In this document: piece by piece, positions 4,751 to 18,514 of the stretch
How the letters are laid out: each line of letters opens with the position of its first letter
How positions within the stretch are numbered: position 1 is the first letter of the stretch
NCBI RefSeq assembly: GCF_030758315.1
Contig: NZ_CP132336.1
Location: 3,315,001-3,379,000, forward strand
Length of the DNA stretch: 64,000 bases
From: Pararhizobium sp. IMCC3301
GTDB taxonomy: Bacteria > Pseudomonadota > Alphaproteobacteria > Rhizobiales > GCA-2746425
Direction of reading: 5' to 3'
Position numbers and translations under genes: made by a program
Notes under the pieces: model-generated
What the model saw: only the letters and a program-made list of their open reading frames with translations
What the model was told of the DNA's origin: nothing
The model's database searches: none

Positions 4751-4920
4751 GTTCGAAGGGAGAGTGGGAGCCGCGTGAAAATCGTTCCTGCCAGACGGAT
4801 GAACTCAGGGCCACACCTCACAACTCGTGCAGCAACGCCGGTCGTAGACAAGCATGATGTCCGCGACGGCTAAGAGACTGGACGCGAGATTACGGACGTT
4901 CGAGGAAATTTGATTTCCAA

Positions 4921-5784
4921 TCACTTCAGCATCGGCGCGTAATCGTCGAGGTAGGCGACGTCGAAATCGGCGAATGCAACCAACCGGTCGAAATCGTCGA
5001 ACGAAACGTGACCATTGCGAAACGTCAGCATGCCTTCCTCCCGCAACTGCCGCAGGACACGGTTGATATGTACGGCGCTGAGCCCAAGGGCGTCGGACAG
5101 AACGTGTTGCGACAGTGGACAGTCATAGCCGTCCAGCTTAGCAAGTCCGACGAGCTTGAGCCGTGCCCCCAATTCAAGCAGGAAATGTGCCGTGCGTTCC
5201 GCGGCGTCGCGTCGCCCTAGCCCGACCAGATGTTCGACGACCATCGCCTCGTCGCGCGATGCGGCCCAGAGGACGGCCGTTGCCAACCGCGGCGTCCGGG
5301 TGAAGGCGTCAAACAGATCGCCGGCCTGAACCACGGAGGCTTCGACCCGTGTGATTGGCTCGATGTTGTGGTCGGAGGTGCGAAACAGCAGGCTACGCAG
5401 GCCCAGAAAATCGCCCGGCACCTGGATATCGACGATTTGCCGGGTTCCATCGCGAAGGATCTTGAAGGAAATGGCCCAGCCATTGGCAAGAATGTAGGCG
5501 GGCTGGTTTTTCTGGCCCTCATGGATCATGTCGACCCCCGGCACGAAGATCCGTCGTCGTTTGTGAAGCTGAGCAAGAACGTCGAGGTCGTTATCGGACA
5601 GCACAACATATGATCCGAGTTTCCTGGTCAACGGACTGTTCTGAATATTCAACACTTTGCCCTTTTGAAGTACAGCGAGAACGGGACCCGAATTGGTGTG
5701 AATCATACATATTCCAGGGGTTTTCGCCACAGACTGCTCTAGATCAATCCAGAATAAATTATCTATGCGAGTATTGCGACTCAA
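4921..5784 (-). CDS. Crp/Fnr-family transcriptional regulator
   Basis: The product has an N-terminal cyclic-nucleotide-binding-like beta-roll (KRRRIFVPGVDMIHEGQKNQ, then QIVDIQVPGDFLGLRSL) and a C-terminal winged helix with the recognition region LSQHVLSDALGLSAVHINRV. There are no clustered N-terminal cysteines of the FNR type, so an oxygen-sensing iron-sulfur cluster is unlikely. The frame allows 287 aa from 5784, about 30-40 more than usual; a more likely start is the ATG at 5706 (MIHTNSGPV) or later, but no strong ribosome site settles this. It is divergent from the small gene at 5844 and adjoins the phosphoketolase region. Regulation of these neighbours is plausible but unproven. Confidence 0.85.
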   Translation of the reverse strand: MSRNTRIDNLFWIDLEQSVAKTPGICMIHTNSGPVLAVLQKGKVLNIQNSPLTRKLGSYVVLSDNDLDVLAQLHKRRRIFVPGVDMIHEGQKNQPAYILANGWAISFKILRDGTRQIVDIQVPGDFLGLRSLLFRTSDHNIEPITRVEASVVQAGDLFDAFTRTPRLATAVLWAASRDEAMVVEHLVGLGRRDAAERTAHFLLELGARLKLVGLAKLDGYDCPLSQHVLSDALGLSAVHINRVLRQLREEGMLTFRNGHVSFDDFDRLVAFADFDVAYLDDYAPMLK

Positions 5785-7752: not shown

Positions 7753-9077
7753 CAGGTTGCTGAAAAACCCTCTCGCCAATCCGGGCTGATTGTGATTCTG
7801 TTGTTGTGGATAAAACGGAGGGATTTGTGGTGCGTGGTATCGAGAATTCTGACGCTGGTCTGTTTTCCTATATCCGGCTTGAGGAGCGTGTTCCTGCCGA
7901 TCATCCGCTGCGGGCGATCCGGGCGTTGGTTGATGAGGTTGTCGGCGGCCTGAACGCACGCTTTGAGCAGCTTTACTCGAAGGTTGGCCGTCCCTCGATC
8001 CCGCCGGAATATCTTTTGCGCGCGACGCTGCTGCAGGCTTTTTATTCGGTGCGCTCGGAACGGATGCTGATGGAGCAGATTGATTACAATTTGTTGTTCC
8101 GCTGGTTTGTCGGGCTGCCGATGGATGGCGCAGTCTGGCACCCGACGGTGTTCACCAAAAACCGTGACCGTTTGCTGGAAGCGGATGTGGCGCGAGACTT
8201 TCTGATGGCGCTGCTGTCGCTGCACAAGGTCAAGCGGCTGCTGTCGGACGAGCACTTTACCGTTGACGGCACCCTGATCGATGCATGGGCCTCGATGAAG
8301 AGCTTTCGGCCAAAGGATGGCTCCGGTGAACCGCCTGCGCCGGGCCGCAATGGCGAACGCAACTTCCGCAAGGAGAAGCGTTCCAACGAAACCCATGCCT
8401 CGACCACCGATCCGGACGCACGGCTGTTTCGCAAGGGCAATGGCCAGAGCGCGCGGCTGTGTTTCATGGGCCACGCGCTGATGGAGAACCGCAACGGGCT
8501 GATCGTTGACACGGCATTGACCCTCGCCAGCGGCACTGCGGAGCGTGAAGCCACATTGGCGATGCTCGACCGTCGCAAGCATGGCCAGCGTATCACACTT
8601 GGAGCCGACAAGGCGTATGATGTGACCAGCTTCATCGGCGATCTGCGCAAACGCAAGGTGACGCCGCATATCGCAGTCAACGGCACGCTCAGCAAGCTGG
8701 GCAAGCCGCGCAAGACGGCCATTGACGGGCGCACGACGCGCCATTGCGGCTACGCCATCAGCCAGCGCATCCGCAAACGTGTCGAAGAGGCCTTCGGCTG
8801 GACCAAGACGCAGGCTGGATATGGCAAGGTGAAACTACGCGGTAGACCAAAGGTCGAAGCCGTCTTCACCTTCGCCATCGTCGCCTACAATCTGATCCGA
8901 ATACCGAAGCTTTTAAATGAGGCTGCGGCGACATAGAAAAACAACCGGCGAAAGGCCGAAAACAGCATCACGAAGCCATACTATCAGACCCGAAGATCGT
9001 AAAAAAAACCGCCAAATCACACAAAACCACACCAAACGCCCAACCGGAAGAAAACAAACCTGTTTTTCAGCAACCTG
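7753..9077 (+). mobile_element. IS5-family insertion sequence, complete
   Basis: Both ends carry the same perfect 16-bp inverted repeat, CAGGTTGCTGAAAAAC, at 7753-7768 and complemented at 9062-9077. The 1325-bp element is flanked on each side by CTAG (7749-7752 and 9078-9081), which matches the YTAR target duplication of the IS5 group. It encodes one intact transposase. The right-hand CTAG contains the TA duplication and first base of the neighbouring IS630 element, so this IS inserted at the very edge of an older IS. Confidence 0.92.
7827..8936 (+). CDS. IS5-family transposase
   Basis: This DDE transposase of about 369 aa has the family's N-terminal block (DHPLRAIRALVDEV, PSIPPEYLLRATLLQAFYSV), the first catalytic aspartate in HFTVDGTLIDAWASMKSF, the second in LGADKAYDV, and the glutamate in RIRKRVEEAFGWTK. 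The open frame extends to GTG 7806, but GGAGGG at 7818 favours GTG 7827 or 7830. No frameshift or internal stop is present, so the element should be able to move. Confidence 0.92.
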   Translation: MVRGIENSDAGLFSYIRLEERVPADHPLRAIRALVDEVVGGLNARFEQLYSKVGRPSIPPEYLLRATLLQAFYSVRSERMLMEQIDYNLLFRWFVGLPMDGAVWHPTVFTKNRDRLLEADVARDFLMALLSLHKVKRLLSDEHFTVDGTLIDAWASMKSFRPKDGSGEPPAPGRNGERNFRKEKRSNETHASTTDPDARLFRKGNGQSARLCFMGHALMENRNGLIVDTALTLASGTAEREATLAMLDRRKHGQRITLGADKAYDVTSFIGDLRKRKVTPHIAVNGTLSKLGKPRKTAIDGRTTRHCGYAISQRIRKRVEEAFGWTKTQAGYGKVKLRGRPKVEAVFTFAIVAYNLIRIPKLLNEAAAT

Positions 9078-9080
9078 CTA

Positions 9081-10138
9081 GAGCAATTTTCGCTCTGACG
9101 GAATCGATACGGGGTTTTCAAATCGGTTGATCTTTGATTCAACATCGATGCTGGGCAAGGAGGCCAGCATCGATGACAGCACCTCTATCCAACGATCTTC
9201 GTCTTCGTGTTGTGCAGGCTATTGAAGCTGGTCTTTCGCGGCGGGCAGTTGCAGGCAGGTTTGATGTTTCCATCGCCTCTGCGGTGCGCTGGTATCAGCG
9301 CTTCAAGCGAACGGGCAGCGTTGAGCCGGATGCCATTGGCGGCGACCGGCACAGTCACCGTGCCGAGGCCCATGCAGCCACGGTGCTGGGATGGATCGAA
9401 GAGAACTGCGATATCACGCTGGTTGAGATTGCGGACCGGCTGGCTGCGCAAGGCCATGTTTTTGCTCCGGCCACGATCTGGCGCCTCTTGAGCCGTCACG
9501 ATTATACGGTCAAAAAAAGACCGCCCATGCTTCAGAACAGGAGCGTGCCGATGTGAAGACCGCCCGTGAGGCCTGGTTTGCAGATCAACTGGAGCTTGCA
9601 CCGGAGCGGCTGATCTTTCTGGATGAGTGCGGAACCAACACCAAGATGGCGCGCCTTTACGGCCGTTCCAAACGGGGCGAGCGCTGCCGGGCAGCCATTC
9701 CCCACGGCCATTGGAAGACAACGACACTGGTCGCAGGCCTCTCCACAGACGGTATCATCGCGCCCATGATCATGGACGGGGCCATGGATGGCGAGATGTT
9801 CTCAGCCTATATCAATACATTGTTGGCGCCGTGCCTGATGCCCGGCGACATCGTCATCATGGACAACCTGCCCGCCCACAAAGTTTGGGCCGCGCGTGAG
9901 GCCATCGAGGCTGTGGGCGCAACGCTGCTCTTCCTGCCGCCCTATTCGCCCGATTTCAATCCCATCGAGAAGGCCATCGCCCAGATCAAGGCGTTCCTCA
10001 AGAAAACCGCAGCCCGAACCAAACCCGAGCTCGATGCTGCTATCGCAAAAGCAATCGACGTCGTCACCCCGCAAAACGCCGAAAGCTATTTCCAAGCATG
10101 CGGATATCAAACTGATACAGTGTGAATGGATTCTGCTC
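9081..10138 (+). mobile_element. IS630-family insertion sequence
   Basis: The element lies between TA dinucleotides (9079-9080 and 10139-10140), the target duplication typical of IS630/Tc1-mariner elements. The ends share a short imperfect inverted repeat, GAGCAATTTTC on the left and, complemented, GAGCAGAATCC on the right. Rejoining the flanks without both IS elements gives CATACCAGC-TA-GCAGCGC. It encodes a transposase in two overlapping frames. Its left target duplication has been split by the adjacent IS5 element. Confidence 0.85.
9173..10125 (+). CDS. IS630-family transposase made by -1 frameshift
   Basis: The first frame (9173-9556) starts at ATG 9173 after AAGGAGG and encodes the helix-turn-helix part ([20 protein letters not shown]). 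The second frame (to 10125) carries the DDE core: [20 protein letters not shown], and [20 protein letters not shown]. The frames overlap, and a run of seven A followed by G at 9512-9519 lets the ribosome or RNA polymerase slip by -1, joining VKK to [13 protein letters not shown] without loss of homology. This arrangement is normal in the family, so the gene is probably functional rather than broken. The fused product would be about 317 aa. Confidence 0.88.
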
Positions 10139-10330
10139 TAGCAGCGCTTTCTGACGCGCCTTTATAATTTCCTGCTGTTTCTCGTTTTGATCGAGTTGCA
10201 AACGAGGTTTGGATAAAATCGAAATCTCTGAAACACCGGGGCTCCGCGCACCCCCCGATCCGACCGGGGCTTTGGAAGGACCCGCAGCGACGTCTCAATT
10301 TTGCGCCCAGAGGAGGAAGTAAGTGAGCCT

Positions 10331-10434
10331 GCGACAAGTGCGTCATGTCGTCCGGTTTATCGCCTATACGGGTACAAAACAGAAGGGGAAATACTCTCTA
10401 GGCGATAAACCGGAAGACTTGTCGCACTTGTCGC
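10331..10434. repeat. Long imperfect inverted repeat beside primase 3' end
   Basis: Two 36-nt arms (10331-10366 and 10399-10434) are inverted copies with three mismatches. The inner 15 nt (CCGGTTTATCGCCTA) are perfect, and the loop is 32 nt. The outer part contains the word GCGACAAGTG, which recurs in the last codons of the primase gene at 10478-10487. The structure starts just downstream of the primase stop on its strand. It could be a terminator-like hairpin or a replication or recombination site. The rest of the 10141-10454 gap shows nothing else. Confidence 0.7.
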
Positions 10435-10454
10435 AACTCAAGGAAATCAGTGAC

Positions 10455-12773
10455 TTACAGAACATCGAAATCACCCACTTGTCGCAAGGCCACCCGCAGC
10501 CCACGGTAGCCACGCCCCCGAATTCCGCTAGTGTCCTTGATCGCCTCAAAACCACGCTGCGAAAGCGTCTCTGGAAAACTGCGCTTCCGTGTTCCGGGGG
10601 CTTCGCCGTTCTCATAGGCGTAGGCGCTCCAGGAATCCCAGAGATTCCCTGTCGTGTCCGCTTCATGCTTCCCGGTGATGCAGCATTCCTCAATCCACTG
10701 GGCAAAAATGTCCTGTTCCGCAAAGTAGGCGTCTGTCGCTCGCCGTGCGACTTCTGGGCGGATCAGCCCGTTAGCCTGCCAGTCCAGGCAACCCTGGATC
10801 ATCCATGACAGGATTCCCGGCCACTCCTCGCGAAGTTTGGCAGGCAAATTCGCGTCCTTCGATTTGGGGGGATGATCGAACGGCAGAATGATGAACCGCC
10901 GCTTCACGGCTTCATCCACACTGGTCAATGTCGGGGCGTTGTTCCCCACGATCACCAGCTTCATTTGTGGCGTAAATTCAAAAGAGTTCTGGCGCATGAA
11001 TCGCGCCGTAATCTTGTCCCCGCCCGTCAGCGACTTGATCCGGTTTTCTGCCCAGGCCCGCCCCTTCTCTGTCTCGGACGCCCAGGCCAACCGCGCGCCA
11101 TCAAGTCGGGCAATCTCTTCGGGGTGCGCGTCGTGCTTTGCCGCCGTCAGGGTTGAGGTCGCCACGTTGATCGCATATTCGCCCAGGATGTCAGAAAGGG
11201 TGTTGATCGCTGTCGATTTGCCGGAACCGCCTGGGCCATAGACGAACACCAGCGCGTGTTCCTTCGTCATGCCGGTCAGGGAATAGCCGCCCCACATGCG
11301 AAGGAAGCGGACGGCTTCAGCGTCGCCGCCCAAGGCTTCGTCCAGGAAGGCCAGCCAACGCGGGCAGTCCCGCGCCGGGTCGAACCGTTCCAGGGGGACG
11401 GGCGCGCTGGCGGTAAGGCGGGACACATGATCCGCCGGATCGCCGGGACGCAAGTTGCCCGTCAGAAGATCGACGGTCCCGCTGGGCGTCCCAAGAAGCC
11501 ACGGATCGCGATTCCAGTCCACTGCTGTGGCCACGAATTCCCGAACCGTCCGCGCGCCCCGCTCAATGGCTTCCCAGACGTGGACCTTGCGAAGTGGCTT
11601 CGCCGCCGGGTTGTCTTCGGCCATGTCCGTTGCCAGCTTGCGGGCGTAGTGGTGGGCCAGCTTCGTCTCCTCACGCCGCCAGGAATTGCCGTCGAACCGG
11701 AACCAAGTCCCCGCCGCGTGATCGAACCGCAATTCGTCCTTATAGGCCGTCGTGAAGGCTCGGATCACGCCGTCTTCGTCCAATTCGAAGTTCACGTCTC
11801 CCGTGGCACGCGCGCCGCCCAGAACAGCCTCTATGTCGTCGTCATAGACCGCTTGGGCGTCATCCAGTCTGTCGAACAGATCAATGATTTCCGCGCCTTC
11901 CCCAGATATCCGCGCGAGGGCGTTTCGAAGTGTCCGGTTCTGTTGTCTGTCGCCCGCGCGGGTCCACCATGCGCCCGCGTCGCCGTCGTCTTCAGCAATG
12001 GCGTCGCGCGCTTCCTCTTCGGACTTGCCTTCGCGGAATCGGTCGCAGAGGAATTTGAAGCCGACGCCAGAGCCCGACTCGTCACCACCCTTGGGGCCAC
12101 GCTTGCCCGCGCGCCGCTTGAACGCGGGGCCATGGTCCCGCACCAGCCACTCCAGATCGGCGCGCGTCACGGGGCAGATGGTTGACACGTCGCCGACACG
12201 ATCTTCCGTCACAGTGAAATACCGCCCACCCAAGAACAACGCGATTTCGGTATGGCCACCCAAGGAGAATTCAGCACCGCCTTTCGGCGTCACCAGCCCC
12301 GCGTCCTGCAAGGCGGCCATGTCCGACTCTCGGCAAAGGAACAGGATGTGGAGTCCCGTGCCGCTGGGGGACAGTTCGGCGTAGCTGGCGAAGCGGTTGA
12401 CAACGGCGGACGCCCAAGGGGCAAGCGCGTCGGTGTCGGTGTCGAGGCAACCGTCCAGATCGACGCCACAAAGCCGCCAACCTTCCTCCTGGGCGAGCGG
12501 GCCGAACATGACGCCAACGCCCGCCGAGCGGCCATCCGCGAGCTTCTGGGCGCGCCCTTGCGCCGCCTTGTGCGGCCCCCAGGTTTCCGGGCTATCGGAC
12601 TTCGCCATTCGACCCGTCCGGGGCGTATAAGGGACCTTTGAAGGTTTGTCCCTGCCACGCCGCAATTCGTCCCGCCATGCGACCCAGATTGGGGTTCCCT
12701 TCAGGTCGTCGAGGGTGAAGGCAGGCTTGCCACGGGCCTTCATTTTGTGGTATCGAGATACCGCGATGGTCAT
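10455..12773 (-). CDS. Phage/plasmid primase-helicase (P4 alpha / D5 type)
   Basis: This 772-aa two-part protein has an N-terminal primase-polymerase-like region (WRLCGVDLDGCLD, YAELSPSGTGLHI, FLGGRYFTVT) and a C-terminal D5-type SF3 helicase with Walker A YGPGGSGKSTAINTL, a downstream WASETEKGRAWAE, and the sensor region KLVIVGNNAPTL. It would start replication of an integrated phage, satellite or plasmid. The ATG at 12773 is preceded by AAGGAA, so the 66-residue upstream extension of the frame is probably not used. It is the last gene before the putative attachment site at 13007-13025. No integrase or phage structural gene is visible nearby. Confidence 0.9.
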   Translation of the reverse strand: MTIAVSRYHKMKARGKPAFTLDDLKGTPIWVAWRDELRRGRDKPSKVPYTPRTGRMAKSDSPETWGPHKAAQGRAQKLADGRSAGVGVMFGPLAQEEGWRLCGVDLDGCLDTDTDALAPWASAVVNRFASYAELSPSGTGLHILFLCRESDMAALQDAGLVTPKGGAEFSLGGHTEIALFLGGRYFTVTEDRVGDVSTICPVTRADLEWLVRDHGPAFKRRAGKRGPKGGDESGSGVGFKFLCDRFREGKSEEEARDAIAEDDGDAGAWWTRAGDRQQNRTLRNALARISGEGAEIIDLFDRLDDAQAVYDDDIEAVLGGARATGDVNFELDEDGVIRAFTTAYKDELRFDHAAGTWFRFDGNSWRREETKLAHHYARKLATDMAEDNPAAKPLRKVHVWEAIERGARTVREFVATAVDWNRDPWLLGTPSGTVDLLTGNLRPGDPADHVSRLTASAPVPLERFDPARDCPRWLAFLDEALGGDAEAVRFLRMWGGYSLTGMTKEHALVFVYGPGGSGKSTAINTLSDILGEYAINVATSTLTAAKHDAHPEEIARLDGARLAWASETEKGRAWAENRIKSLTGGDKITARFMRQNSFEFTPQMKLVIVGNNAPTLTSVDEAVKRRFIILPFDHPPKSKDANLPAKLREEWPGILSWMIQGCLDWQANGLIRPEVARRATDAYFAEQDIFAQWIEECCITGKHEADTTGNLWDSWSAYAYENGEAPGTRKRSFPETLSQRGFEAIKDTSGIRGRGYRGLRVALRQVGDFDVL

Positions 12774-13006
12774 TCGTATGTTCCTTAGCTGGTGATTTGC
12801 ACAAGTTCCCGGTTCGCAACGCCGCCGTCCCGGATACCCCCTGGGCGGTGGTTTCCGTTTCAGCGTGGAAAGGTAGGGTGATGGTCCTCCGCAAGCGGAG
12901 GAGAGGGCATTTTCGGTGGGACATTTTCCCCGAAAAACCCTGATAATTCGTGGGACTTTTGAGTGTCCCACTTTCTGTTAACTAGCTGATATATAGCGGT
13001 TTCTGT

Positions 13007-13025
13007 ATTCCGCCCCCGGGCACCA
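13007..13025 (+). other. Putative att site: tRNA 3'-end remnant bounding the left island
   Basis: ATTCCGCCCCCGGGCACCA has the layout of a tRNA 3' end: last T-loop bases ATT, a T-stem strand CCGCC (13010-13014), a 7-nt acceptor strand CCCGGGC (13015-13021), a discriminator A and CCA. The bases upstream do not continue as a tRNA, so only the 3' end is present, as left by integrases that cross over in the T-loop. The intact tRNA would then lie left of the window, with its 3' end pointing toward the island. Gene character changes here from mobile to ordinary chromosomal. The 12774-13209 gap also holds an inverted GTGGGAC/GTCCCAC pair (12950-12971). Confidence 0.5.
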
Positions 13026-13209
13026 TTTTCAAATCAAATACTTAGCTTGAAATCTGCGTGTTGTGTTTGACCATTCGCAACCGGGCGGCAGCATATTCAT
13101 TCGGTGCGCCAGATCTGGTCGCATTCCATCTACTGACTCGCAAAGACTGTTCCGCAGCAGTCTGAAATCGTATAGTCCTTCTCACAGTTTCAAATTCTGG
13201 TTGATTACT

Positions 13210-14511
13210 ATGACCCAATCAAATCAGGCGGATACGTTGCGGGATATCCTGTCCAAGACAGAGCGCCTGCCAACATATTTGTTGGATGCTTACCAGAACC
13301 GCTCACTGGAAATCATGCTGCGTCACGCACATGAAAACACGAGCTTTTATCGGGATCGCCTTGCTTGCCTATTTGATGAAATGGGTGACATCAATCTGGA
13401 TGCACTGCAAAAGGTGCCGATTCTCACCCGGTCTGAAATCCAGGCCGAACCTCACCATCTTTACGCAGATGAAGTGCCAGAGAATTCAGGCATCAAGGTT
13501 GATTCATACACATCCGGATCGACCGGCCAGCCGCTGAAAATGCGCTACAGCAGCATCAACGGCGAGGTCGCTCGCGCGATCCATCTGCGGACCTGCATCT
13601 GGAACGGCATAGATTTCGACAAGAAATTGGCTGAGATTACCAGCTCGGCAATTGCGGATGTGCTCGAGCAACCTGATCAGAGCAGGAGCAAATGGAATCC
13701 CTGGGGAACTGGAGATCATTTTTTCCTTAGCTTGAAAACCTCCAGTTTGGACGACCAGTTGCAATGGCTTTCACGGATTAACGCCACTTATCTGAAGGGA
13801 TTTCCGACAGTCTGTTGCACCATTCTTCAGGAAGCCGACCGGCAGGGCATAAAGCTCAATCTTGAAAAAGTTTTCACCAGTGGCGAACTGGTGCCTGATC
13901 TTATGCGGGAGGCAAAGCCGGAGCATTGGCCGGATGTGGTCGATATTTATGGAACCACGGAAACCGGAATAATCTGCAGCCAGTGCAAGTACGGAACGTA
14001 TCATGTTCACCGGGAAAATGTATTTTTGGAAATTCTTGATGATGCCGGCAATCCAACTGCCACCGGTGAAATCGGTCATGTTGTCGTGACGGCGCTTTAT
14101 AATTTCGCAATGCCATTCATTCGATATGCTATCGGCGACTTTGCGGTCGCTGGTGATGATCAATGCGCCTGTGGCATTTCCCTGCCAACTGTTCAACGCA
14201 TTGTCGGGCGCGAGCGAAATTATTTCAGGTTTCCGGATAACCACCATTTCTGGCCATTTGCTCAGTCAAGCCAGATCAGGAAATATGTCCCGAACCGATT
14301 TCGCCAGATTGCTCAGGTTTCAGATTATGGAATTGAATTTCGCTACACACCGGAGGCGGAAGACCAATTCGAAGATCCTGCCGGTTTGCAGCGCTATCTG
14401 GCCGAATGCCTGCATCCGGATATTCAGCTTGAGCTCGTCAGAGTCCCCATCCCGGTTCGAACACGCGGCGAAAAACACCTGGAATATATCTGCGAACTGA
14501 AACGGATTTAG
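13210..14511 (+). CDS. PaaK/CapK-like adenylate-forming enzyme
   Basis: This 433-aa protein resembles phenylacetate-CoA-ligase-like members of the ANL superfamily, which activate a carboxylic acid as an acyl-adenylate. It has an N-terminal helical region (LEIMLRHAHENTSFYRDRL), the phosphate-binding loop SYTSGSTGQPLKMRY, the adenine-site motif DIYGTTETG, and the hinge region RYAIGDFAVAG. Cysteines around QCKYGTYHVH and DDQCACGISLP recall the zinc-binding cysteines of PaaK. The ATG at 13210 is chosen by homology; the open frame extends further upstream. The substrate is unknown. No thioesterase, acyl carrier or phenylacetate genes are nearby; an amino-acid or polysaccharide-tailoring role is possible. 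Confidence 0.75.
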   Translation: MTQSNQADTLRDILSKTERLPTYLLDAYQNRSLEIMLRHAHENTSFYRDRLACLFDEMGDINLDALQKVPILTRSEIQAEPHHLYADEVPENSGIKVDSYTSGSTGQPLKMRYSSINGEVARAIHLRTCIWNGIDFDKKLAEITSSAIADVLEQPDQSRSKWNPWGTGDHFFLSLKTSSLDDQLQWLSRINATYLKGFPTVCCTILQEADRQGIKLNLEKVFTSGELVPDLMREAKPEHWPDVVDIYGTTETGIICSQCKYGTYHVHRENVFLEILDDAGNPTATGEIGHVVVTALYNFAMPFIRYAIGDFAVAGDDQCACGISLPTVQRIVGRERNYFRFPDNHHFWPFAQSSQIRKYVPNRFRQIAQVSDYGIEFRYTPEAEDQFEDPAGLQRYLAECLHPDIQLELVRVPIPVRTRGEKHLEYICELKRI

Positions 14512-14558
14512 GCCTTATCCATTTGATGTGATTTCAGAGCAGACGACCGCGATTGCGC

Positions 14559-15371
14559 CTAGCCGATTTCTGGCTTGACAGTGTTTTTGCTCGGCTCAAT
14601 TGATTGAAGCAAATTTGGCGGGATCGCTGACTCAATTGGATCGTCTTCACGATGGCGGGCTTTTAGAGGCTTGTCGGATCCCAGATACAGCCTGACACCG
14701 CCAAACACTCCGTAGTCACCATCTTCGTCAACGATGCCGTCTGCGTAGAATGCAAGATTTGAAAGACCGGCAAACTCTGGCAGGATTTCAAATCCGGCAA
14801 CGCCGTAGCTCTTGTCGAGTTGATAGCGATAACCGGCATAAAGCCGCAAATCATCTATCGGATAAAACGAAAGCGTCGACCCGGCCAAAACACCGTCTGA
14901 ATCGCCAAATTCAGCTCCAATCAAACCGCTGATTGTGACGTTATCAAAGTAATATTCAGCTTCAACTGCTGCATTACCAATATCTTCGTATGCACCCCAT
15001 TCAACATGGGTGTAGGATCCGTACAATCCCACCAATCCAAAATCGGGATTACGCCAGAACAGGTGCCCACCAACGCCGCCAGAAACCTCGTCGCCATCGC
15101 GCAAAGCACCCATTGCATCCAGCTGCACACCGTACCGATGTCCAATTGGAGCCGTCACGGAGCCCGACAGAACAGACAGGAAATCATCGTCCAACACGCC
15201 AAATGCGGCGGCGACTTTCGCATTGATTGCCGAAACAGCGGGCTTGTCCCCGTATGCTGCTTCTGGTGAAGAGACTTCCAAATAGGTTAAATCAGCCGCA
15301 TACACGGAACTGACTCCTGCGGAAAGTATGACGATCAAAGCCGTGGAATTCAGTAGATGGTTGCGTTTCAT
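14559..15371 (-). CDS. Putative outer-membrane beta-barrel protein
   Basis: ATG 15371 follows GGGAGAA and opens a clear signal peptide (STALIVILSAGVSSVYA, cut before ADLTYLE). The mature protein has alternating, glycine- and aromatic-rich strands (YGVQLDAMGALRDGDEVSGG, LVGLYGSYTHVEWGAY, DLRLYAGYRYQLDKSY), the pattern of a small beta-barrel. A charged, proline-containing tail of about 35 residues follows the last strand, so the C-terminus is not the usual terminal aromatic. It is divergent from the small peptide gene at 15456 and convergent with the ligase gene. Barrel nature is inferred from pattern. Confidence 0.6.
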   Translation of the reverse strand: MKRNHLLNSTALIVILSAGVSSVYAADLTYLEVSSPEAAYGDKPAVSAINAKVAAAFGVLDDDFLSVLSGSVTAPIGHRYGVQLDAMGALRDGDEVSGGVGGHLFWRNPDFGLVGLYGSYTHVEWGAYEDIGNAAVEAEYYFDNVTISGLIGAEFGDSDGVLAGSTLSFYPIDDLRLYAGYRYQLDKSYGVAGFEILPEFAGLSNLAFYADGIVDEDGDYGVFGGVRLYLGSDKPLKARHREDDPIESAIPPNLLQSIEPSKNTVKPEIG

Positions 15372-15455
15372 AGTGTTCTCCCAGTATTGAGTCTTCAGTA
15401 CATTATTGACGTTCCGATGAAAAGCGGTTCTTAGTGTTGCAACGAGGAGAAAGTT

Positions 15456-15569
15456 ATGTCGAAAATCATTCTTGATAATCAAAAGTTGCTGGGCACCGAC
15501 CGCGACGGGCGCCAGGTTGGCTCAGAAAAAGTCGGCGAGCCTAAAGGCAAGATCGATCAGCAGAAGTAA
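15456..15569 (+). CDS. 37-aa peptide, candidate RiPP precursor
   Basis: ATG 15456 has a strong ribosome site, ACGAGGAGAAAG, and encodes a very hydrophilic 37-residue peptide. It begins MSKIILDNQKLLGTDRDG and ends with a lysine/glycine/glutamate-rich part finishing KGKIDQQK. It has no cysteine and no signal sequence. It lies 106 bp upstream of, and on the same strand as, an HExxH peptide-hydroxylase-like gene. In such gene pairs a short, well-translated ORF is usually the modified substrate; that is inference here. Candidate modified residues are the Asp, Asn, Gln and Lys side chains. It is divergent from the outer-membrane protein gene. Confidence 0.55.
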   Translation: MSKIILDNQKLLGTDRDGRQVGSEKVGEPKGKIDQQK

Positions 15570-15675
15570 GAACACAACTTTTTCGTGTTGTGCAGTTGCC
15601 ATTCGAAATGATGCCATTGGCTGATTTGCAGGCCTCTTGCCGCGCTTGTAACTGCCGGCAACCAGTTGGGCTGAT

Positions 15676-16659
15676 TTGTTTAATCCGACCGCTAATTCCA
15701 GCAAACGCCTGATTCAGCGCATGAGCGGCGCGCTTGCGTTGAGCCTGGATCATATTTTCGAACAATCTGAACACAGCCTGGATATCGGCCAGCGTGCAAA
15801 AGAAATCCTGCTGTCCCGACTTCACAATGGGAGTCGGGAGAGTCCCGCACTCTATGCCCTCCATTTTCTTCTGATAAACCAGATCAGGCGAGACTCTCTG
15901 ACGTCTGCGCAAGCCACTATCAACCGGATCTTGTCGCTCTCCCCCGCAGATATCGGGACAGTATCGATACAGCTTGGCGCACCAGAGGCTCACGCTGACC
16001 TCGTGGTCATTCTACCGTTTCTCGCAGAGGGAGAGGATGCCCGATTTTCATTTGTCGAGCCATCTGCCAGGCAAGCAGAACTGGCACTGCAGCAAATTGA
16101 CGAAGCCCTTCAAATGCTGCGCGTCGGCGCTTTCCCTTTCCATTCCGAAATTGGTGAAATCGTTCCATGGATTGTTGTCGCGGCCGGAAAACCTACCGAA
16201 ATCAACGAGGACCCGGAATCATCATTTGGCGGTGCTTCGGCCCTGCGCGCTTTTGGAGCCGTTCTGCAGAATGCCGACTTGCAAGACAGTGTGTTTGATC
16301 GTGCACTGTCATTGGTGCATGAAACATCGCACCATGTTTTGTTTGCACACTCCCCGAAAGATGGTGTTGTTACCAATCCCCCAACAGAGCTCTATTCGTC
16401 GCCATTGAGAACTGACCCAAGGCCCATGGAAGGCATTCATCATGCCACTTTTGTCCTTGCGCGCATGGCATTGGTTGCAAGGCAATTGCTGGAGTCTGGA
16501 CTATTAAGCAAGCAGGATAATGAATTGGCACGCGAGACCATCGCCGATTCTCGCACCCTGTTTGCAGATGGGCTCGAAACACTTGATCAATATGCAAATT
16601 ACACGCCATTGGGTTCGCAGGCGATAGACGAAGCGCGTGCTTTCATGGCCTCGCTTTAG
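15676..16659 (+). CDS. HExxH-motif peptide-modifying enzyme (putative peptide beta-hydroxylase)
   Basis: The C-terminal third has HETSHH with metal-binding histidines near residues 215 and 219, then SSPLRTDPRPMEGIHHATFV, whose histidine near 254-255 would complete the site. This combination (HExxH, then a PLR-x-DPRP block, then GIxHA) is that of the HExxH-motif domain of RiPP clusters, recently described as 2-oxoglutarate-dependent peptide hydroxylases rather than proteases. The helical N-terminal 200 residues fit the family. The start is uncertain: TTG 15676 is the first usual codon, ATG 15721 is alternative, and the frame is open back to a TAA at 15649 with protein-like residues (LPATSWADLF). 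No strong ribosome site is seen, so coupling to the peptide gene is possible. Confidence 0.7.
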   Translation: MFNPTANSSKRLIQRMSGALALSLDHIFEQSEHSLDIGQRAKEILLSRLHNGSRESPALYALHFLLINQIRRDSLTSAQATINRILSLSPADIGTVSIQLGAPEAHADLVVILPFLAEGEDARFSFVEPSARQAELALQQIDEALQMLRVGAFPFHSEIGEIVPWIVVAAGKPTEINEDPESSFGGASALRAFGAVLQNADLQDSVFDRALSLVHETSHHVLFAHSPKDGVVTNPPTELYSSPLRTDPRPMEGIHHATFVLARMALVARQLLESGLLSKQDNELARETIADSRTLFADGLETLDQYANYTPLGSQAIDEARAFMASL

Positions 16660-16960
16660 AAACAAGACTGGCATCTAGTCGAAATTAAAACAGTGGCTTA
16701 TAATTCTCGAAAAATTCGGCTTCTTCGCTGATTGCTAAAAATACAATGACTTATGGGATTCGCGCCAGAGACCTGGCATAGATCTGCTTCCATAGTAGCT
16801 GCGCAAAATTCACCGTTGTGGCGGTTCACCCTTGCGAGACAGGACCAGATGGCGGACTGTAACGCAATCCGGTTACATGGGCCGATAAAAAGCGTGTTGT
16901 GCATCACATTTGGACTCGCTAAAGACCGCTCTCAATTGTTTGAGGAATTGGAATCTGGCG

Positions 16961-18058
16961 ATGGTGCCTGTGAAACATCCGGACGAGCAGCTTCGGCTTA
17001 ACTCGCTTCGGTCCTACAACATACTGGATACGGCCGCTGATACTGATTTCACGGAAATCGTCGAGCTGGCGGCGGCCATTTGTGAAACCCCGGTTTCGCT
17101 GATCAGCTTTGTCGATAGTGACCGGCAATGGTTCAAGGCGCGGGTAGGCTTCCCCGAAAGTGAGACGGGTCTGGATCGATCCGTATGCGCCCACGCCCTT
17201 CTGGAAGGTGACTATCTGGAGATCAACGACATGGGCTCTGATCCAAGAACTTCTGACAACCCACTGCATACTGGCGATGTCGGGGTGAATTTTTACGCCG
17301 GCGCTGTTCTGGTTGCGCCCGACGGCATGCCATTGGGTACTTTATGTGTTCTTGATACAAAGCCGCGGGAATTAACGCCGGTGCAAAAGCAGGCGTTGAT
17401 GGTTTTGTCAAAACAGGTGGTGAAACAGCTGGAGCTGCGCAAAAGATTGCAAATTGAAGTCTCCTTGCGCCAGGAGATTGACCACCGGGTCAAGAATTCG
17501 CTTCAGACCATAGCGTCGATCCTGAGAGTATCGACACGACAGGTAACGGATGAAGCGGCCATTGAAATTCTGCAACTGGTGGAGCGCAGGTTAAACTCGG
17601 TTGCGGCCCTGCACGTGGAACTCATGGGCAAGGATGAAAATTCCGGTGTTGATGCGGGGCATTATTTACGCCGCGTGCAGGATCTGTTGCAACAGGTAAT
17701 GCCTGACAATATCTCGATGTCGATCGATTATGTTGACTGCGCTCTGGAGCAAAGCAAAGCCTCTGCGATTGGCATGATCGTAAGTGAATTTGTCGCAAAC
17801 TCGGTTAAACACGCATTTCCCGATGGCGCGTCCGGAGAAATTCAGATCGCGCTCACGCAAACGTCGAACGACCATCTGTTGCTGACCTGTCGTGACAACG
17901 GAACCGGTCGTGCACTCCCATCGCAGACACCTGATCTCTCTTCTGGGCTGGGCAAGCAAATCATGTCATCGGCAGCCATTCAGCTGGGCGGAAATCTTCA
18001 GGAAGACTTTCACGCCAGTGGAACCGCCTTGACAGTCGAGTTCAAAAACCGGCGTTGA
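16961..18058 (+). CDS. GAF-domain sensor histidine kinase (HisKA_2/HWE type)
   Basis: This 365-aa soluble kinase has an N-terminal GAF domain (SLISFVDSDRQWFKARVGF, GMPLGTLCVLDTKPRELT, residues about 20-165), a HisKA_2 dimerisation helix with the phospho-accepting histidine in EIDHRVKNSLQTIASIL, and an HATPase domain (EFVANSVKHAFPDG, DNGTGRALP, GLGKQIM). Kinases of this group in alphaproteobacteria often feed light, redox or general-stress responses. No response regulator or sigma factor lies beside it, so it is an orphan here. ATG 16961 is chosen because homology begins there; a TTG at 16910 would add 17 residues. The 16660-16960 gap shows no gene. Confidence 0.85.
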   Translation: MVPVKHPDEQLRLNSLRSYNILDTAADTDFTEIVELAAAICETPVSLISFVDSDRQWFKARVGFPESETGLDRSVCAHALLEGDYLEINDMGSDPRTSDNPLHTGDVGVNFYAGAVLVAPDGMPLGTLCVLDTKPRELTPVQKQALMVLSKQVVKQLELRKRLQIEVSLRQEIDHRVKNSLQTIASILRVSTRQVTDEAAIEILQLVERRLNSVAALHVELMGKDENSGVDAGHYLRRVQDLLQQVMPDNISMSIDYVDCALEQSKASAIGMIVSEFVANSVKHAFPDGASGEIQIALTQTSNDHLLLTCRDNGTGRALPSQTPDLSSGLGKQIMSSAAIQLGGNLQEDFHASGTALTVEFKNRR

Positions 18059-18394
18059 AAACACTGTGCCGGTGACAGCAAACGCGACTGAGTTTCCATA
18101 TATCTTTCTTGAGCGACGCTGGATTCATCGTTCGTTTCATCAATACATTATGCGTTCAGGAATTCGCCTGAAAACCCTCAAACCGGTCGGCCTCGTCAGG
18201 TCCTGCGCTTTGCCAAGGGCTGTAATTATAACCGTATTGCGCAGCAAATGTTCTAGACATTGTCAGAAGACCGCGACTTCAGACCTGTCCGCTCATCAGT
18301 TGCGCGTGACCAGGCGCGATCCAGCCGCATTCTCTCCCACTCGGACCGCTGCTTGAACAAAACCGAAAGGCGGCATATTTCGGCACCATCCGTA

Positions 18395-18422
18395 TTGACA
18401 CACTACCATGGTAGAGTAACAT
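18395..18422 (+). promoter_or_regulatory. Promoter with embedded operator for sugar ABC operon
   Basis: A -35 box TTGACA (18395-18400) and a -10-like TAACAT (18417-18422) are 16 bp apart. The spacer contains the perfect 12-bp palindrome CTACCATGGTAG at 18403-18414. A repressor bound there would block RNA polymerase. The same palindrome lies beside the GntR gene at 25113-25124. The rest of the 18059-18514 gap shows no gene. Confidence 0.75.
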
Positions 18423-18514
18423 GACGGCGTGAGATCACCATCGAACCCGGTCATGATACACTTGGTCGGGGCAGGGTGATCACCTGATTTTGGAAGTTAA
18501 CGGGAGGACTTTAA

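Follow-up and report, generated by a model that had tools for sequence, protein, structure and literature searches.

A putative precursor peptide gene conserved beside an alpha-ketoglutarate-HExxH family enzyme in Pararhizobium sp. IMCC3301

The stretch of DNA analysed here (the window; 64,000 nucleotides) belongs to a genome (G000) that consists of a single contig of 4.58 Mb; of the named relatives, Rhizobiales bacterium IMCC20636 (order Hyphomicrobiales) is the closest. The window contains a short ORF followed on the same strand by the gene for a putative peptide hydroxylase. The features that concern us are:

13063..14511, plus strand: AMP-binding ligase (PaaK/DVU_1553-like), the upstream gene of the block described below; first ATG used at 13210
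14559..15371, minus strand: outer-membrane-like protein, the divergent gene of the block, with a signal-like N-terminal stretch recognised by eye
15444..15449, plus strand: GAGGAG, the ribosome binding site that precedes the peptide gene
15456..15569, plus strand: putative precursor peptide gene, 37 aa, with tandem homologues in locus L002
15465..15497, plus strand: candidate leader/recognition motif IILDNQKLLGT (D-x-x-K-L-L-G)
15519..15539, plus strand: candidate core unit GSEKVGE (compare LGAKVGE in locus L081)
15676..16659, plus strand: alpha-ketoglutarate-HExxH peptide hydroxylase (TIGR04267) gene, start codon uncertain
16318..16332, plus strand: HExxH motif of the enzyme, HETSH
16402..16446, plus strand: PLRTDPRP...GIHHA block of the enzyme; its D, R and P and its H and A are invariant in 21 aligned enzymes

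The product of the ORF at 15456-15569 is MSKIILDNQKLLGTDRDGRQVGSEKVGEPKGKIDQQK, a peptide of 37 amino acids that contains no cysteine, and a gap of 106 bp separates the end of its gene from the TTG at 15676. The original prediction was exact in its coordinates (down to the enzyme end at 16659) and in this spacing, and it was correct in describing the peptide as free of cysteine and in assigning to the enzyme the HExxH, PLR-x-DPRP and GIHHA blocks, the last two of which lie at 16402-16425 (PLRTDPRP) and 16432-16446. The strong translation that it ascribed to the ORF is suggested by the ribosome binding site. No clear ribosome binding site precedes the TTG of the enzyme, and the enzyme of a congener reads a few codons longer.

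The enzyme is a stand-alone protein of 327 codons, which scores 86.7 bits against NCBIfam TIGR04267 (cut-off 40); no Pfam family was matched at E≤1. Residues S23, H215, E216, H219, D247, R249, P250, H256, A257, R263 and G313 are invariant in all 21 of the aligned relatives. A search with the single sequence recovered the solved enzyme ChlH (8s5f) at E 0.0045. With a profile of 21 rows the E value was 8.4e-19, and the HExxH, D-x-R-P and H-A blocks of the two lined up. Because of the TIGR04267 score, the invariant residues and the ChlH profile alignment, assignment to the alpha-ketoglutarate-HExxH oxygenases is good by sequence, and the enzyme class proposed earlier is supported by the same three results; from the chemistry of the family, a shift of +16 Da would be expected. 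A ChlH-like fold is suggested by the sequence profile; an AlphaFold2 model built with one relative had a mean pLDDT of 43.8, too low for the model to be used. A scan of genome contigs found one relative, L002, a scan of viral contigs found none, and a plasmid search returned three records with relatives 23-27% identical.

The relative in L002 belongs to a congener (G040, loci L002 and L088), whose enzyme is 69% identical to that of the window. Upstream of it, in the same place as the window ORF, are two tandem peptide homologues (L002 5428-5583 and 5709-5870) of 51 and 53 aa, the second of which starts with TTG. Precursor genes are often duplicated in tandem. Twenty-three columns are invariant among the three peptides; conservation is good across the first 27 residues, and in the tail the congener has an acidic insertion. 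Over the first 27 codons, comparison of the window peptide with the two congener copies gave pN 0.14 / pS 0.85 and pN 0.19 / pS 0.55, the values for the two enzymes being pN 0.19 / pS 0.64, and the peptide is under purifying selection. Enzyme and peptide are found together in G000 and G040, and neither is found in the other three of the five family genomes (one genus). When a sample of 397 genomes from the order was searched with a three-row peptide profile, only G000, G040 and, weakly, G265 (E 0.0076) were matched; a motif scan of the G265 region (L073) produced one match only, which is unrelated. The exact peptide-enzyme lineage is thus known from two genomes only.

Since there are homologous tandem copies and 23 invariant columns, and since pN is far below pS, we reject the view that the 37-aa gene is a chance ORF. 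The claim that the short ORF is conserved as a partner of the enzyme agrees with the tandem copies, the substitution pattern, and co-presence in two and co-absence in three of the five genomes. RiPP loci are expected to have a short precursor gene that is conserved next to the gene of a modifying enzyme. Such a pair was found in two genomes for this lineage, and the reading as precursor and modifying enzyme is well supported. A translated attenuator, or a chance ORF that does nothing except regulate the enzyme gene, would be consistent with the location of the ORF upstream of that gene and with the weak hairpin-like element that follows the ORF closely (15572-15593, minus strand). It is nevertheless the amino acid sequence that is conserved and not position alone, the congener has two copies, and no Rfam family was matched in 12000-18500, so that we regard this explanation as very improbable. 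Neither tandem repeats nor a sigma-70-type promoter were found near the peptide and enzyme genes. The peptide itself matched no Pfam or NCBIfam family at E≤1, including the nitrile-hydratase-type leader (PflA-like).

Comparison of the 19.5-kb stretch of L088 with the 64-kb window revealed homology only at 13114-15538 and 15677-16655 (block 13114-16655), where the second congener peptide copy aligns to 15453-15536. Apart from the peptide and enzyme genes, this block takes in only those of the ligase and the outer-membrane-like protein; its two copies are 76% identical in the ligase and 84% identical in the outer-membrane-like protein, for which Pfam and NCBIfam gave no matches. The conserved unit therefore has four genes and not the two of the minimal cluster in the original prediction. 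The accompanying statement on adjacent genes is only partly right. It agrees with the protease, radical-SAM and MNIO genes, none of which was noticed among the neighbours seen, but the block extends upstream to an outer-membrane-like gene and a ligase. Nothing recognisable as a protease, exporter or immunity gene lies beside the peptide and enzyme genes. To the left of the block, at 7806-12971, there are ORFs that by eye resemble transposases and a phage- or plasmid-type primase, and the block therefore borders mobile-element sequence.

All four genes could belong to one pathway, in which the ligase would activate an acyl group or attach it to the peptide in its hydroxylated form, with export or display of the product falling to the outer-membrane-like protein. 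That the block is the sole homology between the two stretches accords with such a pathway, as does the finding that, outside the block, no ligase match in the five family genomes exceeds 36% identity. Paralogues of the ligase and the outer-membrane-like protein are, however, present in all five of these genomes (ligase matches: G000 4, G145 2, G040 6, G115 8, G080 10; outer-membrane-like matches: G000 4, G145 2, G040 8, G115 9, G080 11), often as alternating arrays, which are also seen in three genomes without the enzyme or the peptide. No LLG peptide was seen in the five array loci inspected, and the compound peptide pattern defined below had no match in 16 array loci. We consider a four-gene pathway unlikely. 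Since the ligase/outer-membrane-like pair is multi-copy in congeners that lack enzyme and peptide, it also exists independently of them and may or may not take part in the peptide chemistry. The arrays (L114, G000:C1:1230500-1250000, and L115-L118) have several PaaK-like ligase/outer-membrane-like pairs in a row in the genus of the window; L118:2533-3246, in G040, contains three near-identical 53-aa ORFs in tandem with signal-peptide-like N-termini.

Matches to TIGR04267 were found in 22 of the 397 genomes of the order (20 over the cut-off) and in 11 of 385 genomes of the class, all 11 over the cut-off. We compared 31 regions around such matches and one for G265, leaving out the below-cut-off G068 and G208. 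Fifteen enzymes in 12 other alphaproteobacterial genomes adjoin a short peptide, or the N-terminus of a Hint protein, that has close to its N-terminal end the motif L-[LVIF]-G-[FL] (in L062 the variant M-L-G-L), usually followed by a G/A/S-K-V-G unit, as in MIKLDHTRLLGFKINGSVGAKLGIKVSAKVGGKPVEKID (L083) and MQAVELDVRKLLGFKLVETAGSVAIGAKVGVKPPAPAVR (L075). The motif is preceded by D/N-x-x-[RKTQ] in ten of the 15 (L083, L080, L075, L062, L084, both of L082, L085, L076 and L081) and not in the other five (L065, L074, L077, L078 and L079). Pfam and NCBIfam scans of the window peptide and of other short precursors, four in one scan and five in another, matched no precursor family, and a search of open-licence full texts, made by terms and not by sequence, found no description of this set of peptides.

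The association between motif and enzyme was measured in the 700 bp upstream of 30 enzymes including that of the window, with random 700-bp windows of the same loci as control. D/N-x-x-[RKT]-[LM]-[LIV]-G near an ORF start was found upstream of 9 of 17 paired enzymes (that of the window, that of G040 and the 15 others, a list drawn up after the peptides had been seen) and in 2 of 590 control windows; for L-[LIVF]-G-[FLT] the figures were 13/17 and 16/571, and for L-[LIVF]-G-[FL] 11/17 and 15/574, both enzymes of L082 and that of L085, with Hint-type or opposite-strand peptides, being counted as misses. The 13 other TIGR04267 enzymes gave counts of 1, 0 and 0 for the three forms, the one being L070. 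The motif was first noticed in the window lineage and then sought beside other enzymes, so there is some circularity, and selection plays a part in the match of the window peptide. A compound pattern, the motif followed by [ASE]-K-[VILR]-G, with letter classes widened to take in the window's own T and E, picked out 16 peptides in 767,645 bases, all of them beside such enzymes, against two matches in total in 30 block shuffles of the sequence.

In a tree of 32 proteins, which includes four long fused enzymes that had no part in the upstream test, the 17 paired enzymes fall within a clade of 21 members (support 98/99) together with L066-L069. The paired label requires two changes on this tree as compared with 11.0 on shuffling, and none of 500 shuffles was as low. 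Homologous enzymes without the short upstream ORF, which had been named in advance as evidence against the pairing, are in the minority, so that this check mostly favours the pairing: 17 of the 21 clade enzymes have an adjacent LxG peptide, and the four of L066-L069, which count against it, do not. L067 has a 41-aa upstream ORF of other sequence. At L066:7193-7486 a 97-aa ORF with repeats like MPAGILDTTDARPQTGK lies directly before the HExxH enzyme and is a candidate precursor of another type.

A 13-row peptide profile that includes the window lineage matched 10 of 377 genomes at E≤0.001, all among the 22 enzyme genomes; G181 and G234 were matched although neither has a row in it, and 12 of the 22, including G130 and G224, were missed. 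Weaker matches (E 0.0027 to 0.099) occurred in the enzyme-less genomes G025, G098, G099, G106, G137, G232, G344 and G367, and that of G344 was rejected, as the frame gives no such short peptide.

Two further observations were made at these loci. Beside the very divergent HExxH protein of L070, a short ORF (4902-5144) has two DPLKLVGNAR[LG]LHHHMAPAT-like repeats, whose D-P-L-K-L-V-G resembles the window motif. A protein family with E-x-N-T-N-P (L062:8971-9936, with homologues in L075, L078, L079, L080 and L083) is encoded beside several enzymes; it has a weak match to the D-Ala-D-Ala ligase C-terminus, is possibly ATP-grasp, and is present in 8 of 12 genomes tested and absent from the window genome, G040, G158 and G234.

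The link between the window lineage and this wider set of peptides is weak. Its DNQKLLG fits D/N-x-x-[RKTQ]-[LM]-[LVI]-G near the N-terminus, and the residue after LxG is T in the window and G040 peptides, where the set has F or L. When whole genomes were searched with a profile of 14 distant peptides, the peptides of the window and of G040 were both missed at E≤10, its single strong match in 14 genomes being the training member G577, and profile-profile comparison of the window lineage with the distant peptides aligned 11 columns at E 0.026 with a probability of 1.9%. In position scoring derived from the distant peptides, with 12 settings tried, the window ORF ranked between 1 and 7 among 877 ORFs; of the two G040 copies, one came first and the other second or third among 266 (L088). 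With the first, 13-column scoring the window ORF was outside the top four; with 11 columns it came first by a narrow margin (9.6 vs 9.1), a scoring in which the peptide of the locus itself was first in 10 of 13 loci, second in L065, and outside the top three in L062 and L079. In view of the 14-peptide profile, the profile-profile comparison and the 13-column result, inclusion of the window peptide in the LLGF/GAKVG set cannot be claimed firmly, and we describe its membership as probable. Given the position ranks, the similar location beside the enzyme and the clade to which the enzymes belong, it appears fairly likely that the peptides share an ancestor or a recognition motif.

Read against these peptides, the original prediction was too pessimistic in finding no leader/core boundaries, because a leader-like segment (ILDNQKLLGT) and a core-like one (GSEKVGE) can both be recognised by comparison. 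Nor is the lysine-rich tail unlike everything else: [AS]-K-[VILR]-G units are present in the peptides of 10 of the 15 other enzymes (11 with the S-K-R-G of L079), those of L080, L074, L077 and L078 having no clear unit. The peptide of L081 has three LGAK[VI]GE-like units, to which the window GSEKVGE is similar.

We think it quite probable that the product of the 37-aa ORF is a ribosomally made substrate on which the adjacent iron/alpha-ketoglutarate HExxH enzyme acts, the substrate role and the identity of the leader part being drawn from the comparisons above. By analogy with known members of the family, the enzyme would bind the N-terminal segment IILDNQKLLGT and oxidise the C-terminal part (VGSEKVGEPKGK...) at one or more residues, either by beta-hydroxylation or by a PflC-like hydroxylation with scission of the backbone, and proteins encoded elsewhere may export or trim the product. 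According to the cited passages, known alpha-ketoglutarate-HExxH enzymes hydroxylate Asp, His, Gln, Phe and Pro (PMC12636437; PMC13060819), PflC additionally cleaves the peptide backbone (PMC12636437), and PflC and PosC (PMC12636437), and likewise PesO (PMC13060819), modify adjacent precursors; one of them states that sequence alone does not yet predict the reactions of these enzymes (PMC13060819). Because it is the most constant residue in the repeat units, the lysine of the K-V-G unit is tentatively favoured as the target, the motif Asp being a second candidate. Over 20 peptides, lysine makes up 8.7% of the residues after the motif as against 4.8% before it; it is absent from the residues that the cited passages list for this enzyme family (PMC12636437; PMC13060819).

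A different role for the peptide has also to be weighed. The enzyme might modify the outer-membrane-like or another cell protein, and the short peptide might be an accessory or regulatory binder of the enzyme; the presence of the ligase and the outer-membrane-like gene in the block could be so explained, as could a peptide whose N-terminal half is conserved and whose tail is, in the congener, variable and partly acidic. The peptide is, however, duplicated in tandem in the congener in the manner of precursor genes, related enzymes adjoin repeat-bearing peptides such as that of L081, and the outer-membrane-like gene has many paralogues in congeners without the enzyme. We judge this alternative improbable and retain the peptide as the substrate. 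A broader proposal places the window pair, as one branch, in an alphaproteobacterial class not yet described and defined by a stand-alone HExxH clade, a D-x-x-[RK]-LLG motif and one to several G-x-K-V-G units, the lysine of which would be hydroxylated, with some of the peptides released by Hint domains; we put this forward as a possibility that is still somewhat doubtful.

In two genomes the peptide forms the first 40-odd residues of Hint-domain proteins (L082, 4536-5252 and 6454-7104; L085, 8175-8885 and 8882-9661), whose genes flank or adjoin the HExxH enzymes. Two of the four fusions were scanned, and both matched Pfam Hint_2 (134 and 132 bits), the domain beginning at residue 44 or 42, around the first Cys. 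This suggests release of the peptide by self-processing directly after the K-V-G unit. No description of a Hint domain combined with a precursor peptide and a RiPP was found by a term search of the open-licence full-text literature, and the titles of the 12 papers listed, out of 44 in a wider search, pointed to none; such precursors would suggest a route of RiPP release that needs no protease gene in the cluster.

Among known systems, the fused HExxH proteins L089, L090, L091 and L093, which we take to be FxsB-type, have the TIGR04267 domain at the C-terminus as their family link to the window enzyme; they are open frames of 717-760 aa and form a separate branch of the tree. ChlH (ChlBH; PDB 8s5f; Morishita 2024, as cited in PMC12636437) has the catalytic domain family in common with the window enzyme, which is not fused. 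The Asp and His residues that ChlH modifies belong, according to the cited passage, to a peptide in which a radical-SAM partner has already formed a cyclophane (PMC12636437), and no radical-SAM gene was noticed beside the window enzyme. A parallel in arrangement, as described in the same source, is PflC/PosC of Pseudomonas, where a stand-alone HExxH enzyme likewise lies by a precursor gene with no protease mentioned nearby (PMC12636437). The passages on these clusters report two transporters, a GNAT and an MNIO-nitroreductase, genes of which no counterpart was noticed among the window neighbours seen, and in PflA a nitrile-hydratase-type leader, Gln repeats and ARMD, motifs that the window peptide lacks (PMC12636437). 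PesO, of nitrilobacillin biosynthesis, is an alpha-ketoglutarate-HExxH enzyme that hydroxylates a ribosomal peptide at proline, in a cluster that is, as described, large and unlike the window, with MNIO, nitrile synthetase, peptidases and a transporter (PMC13060819). The characterised examples in these two sources sit in larger clusters (PMC12636437; PMC13060819); a pair of one peptide and one oxygenase would be almost as simple a system as can be had for studying what the enzyme recognises and where the oxidation falls, and in the wider set the number of repeated lysine units varies naturally from one to three or more.
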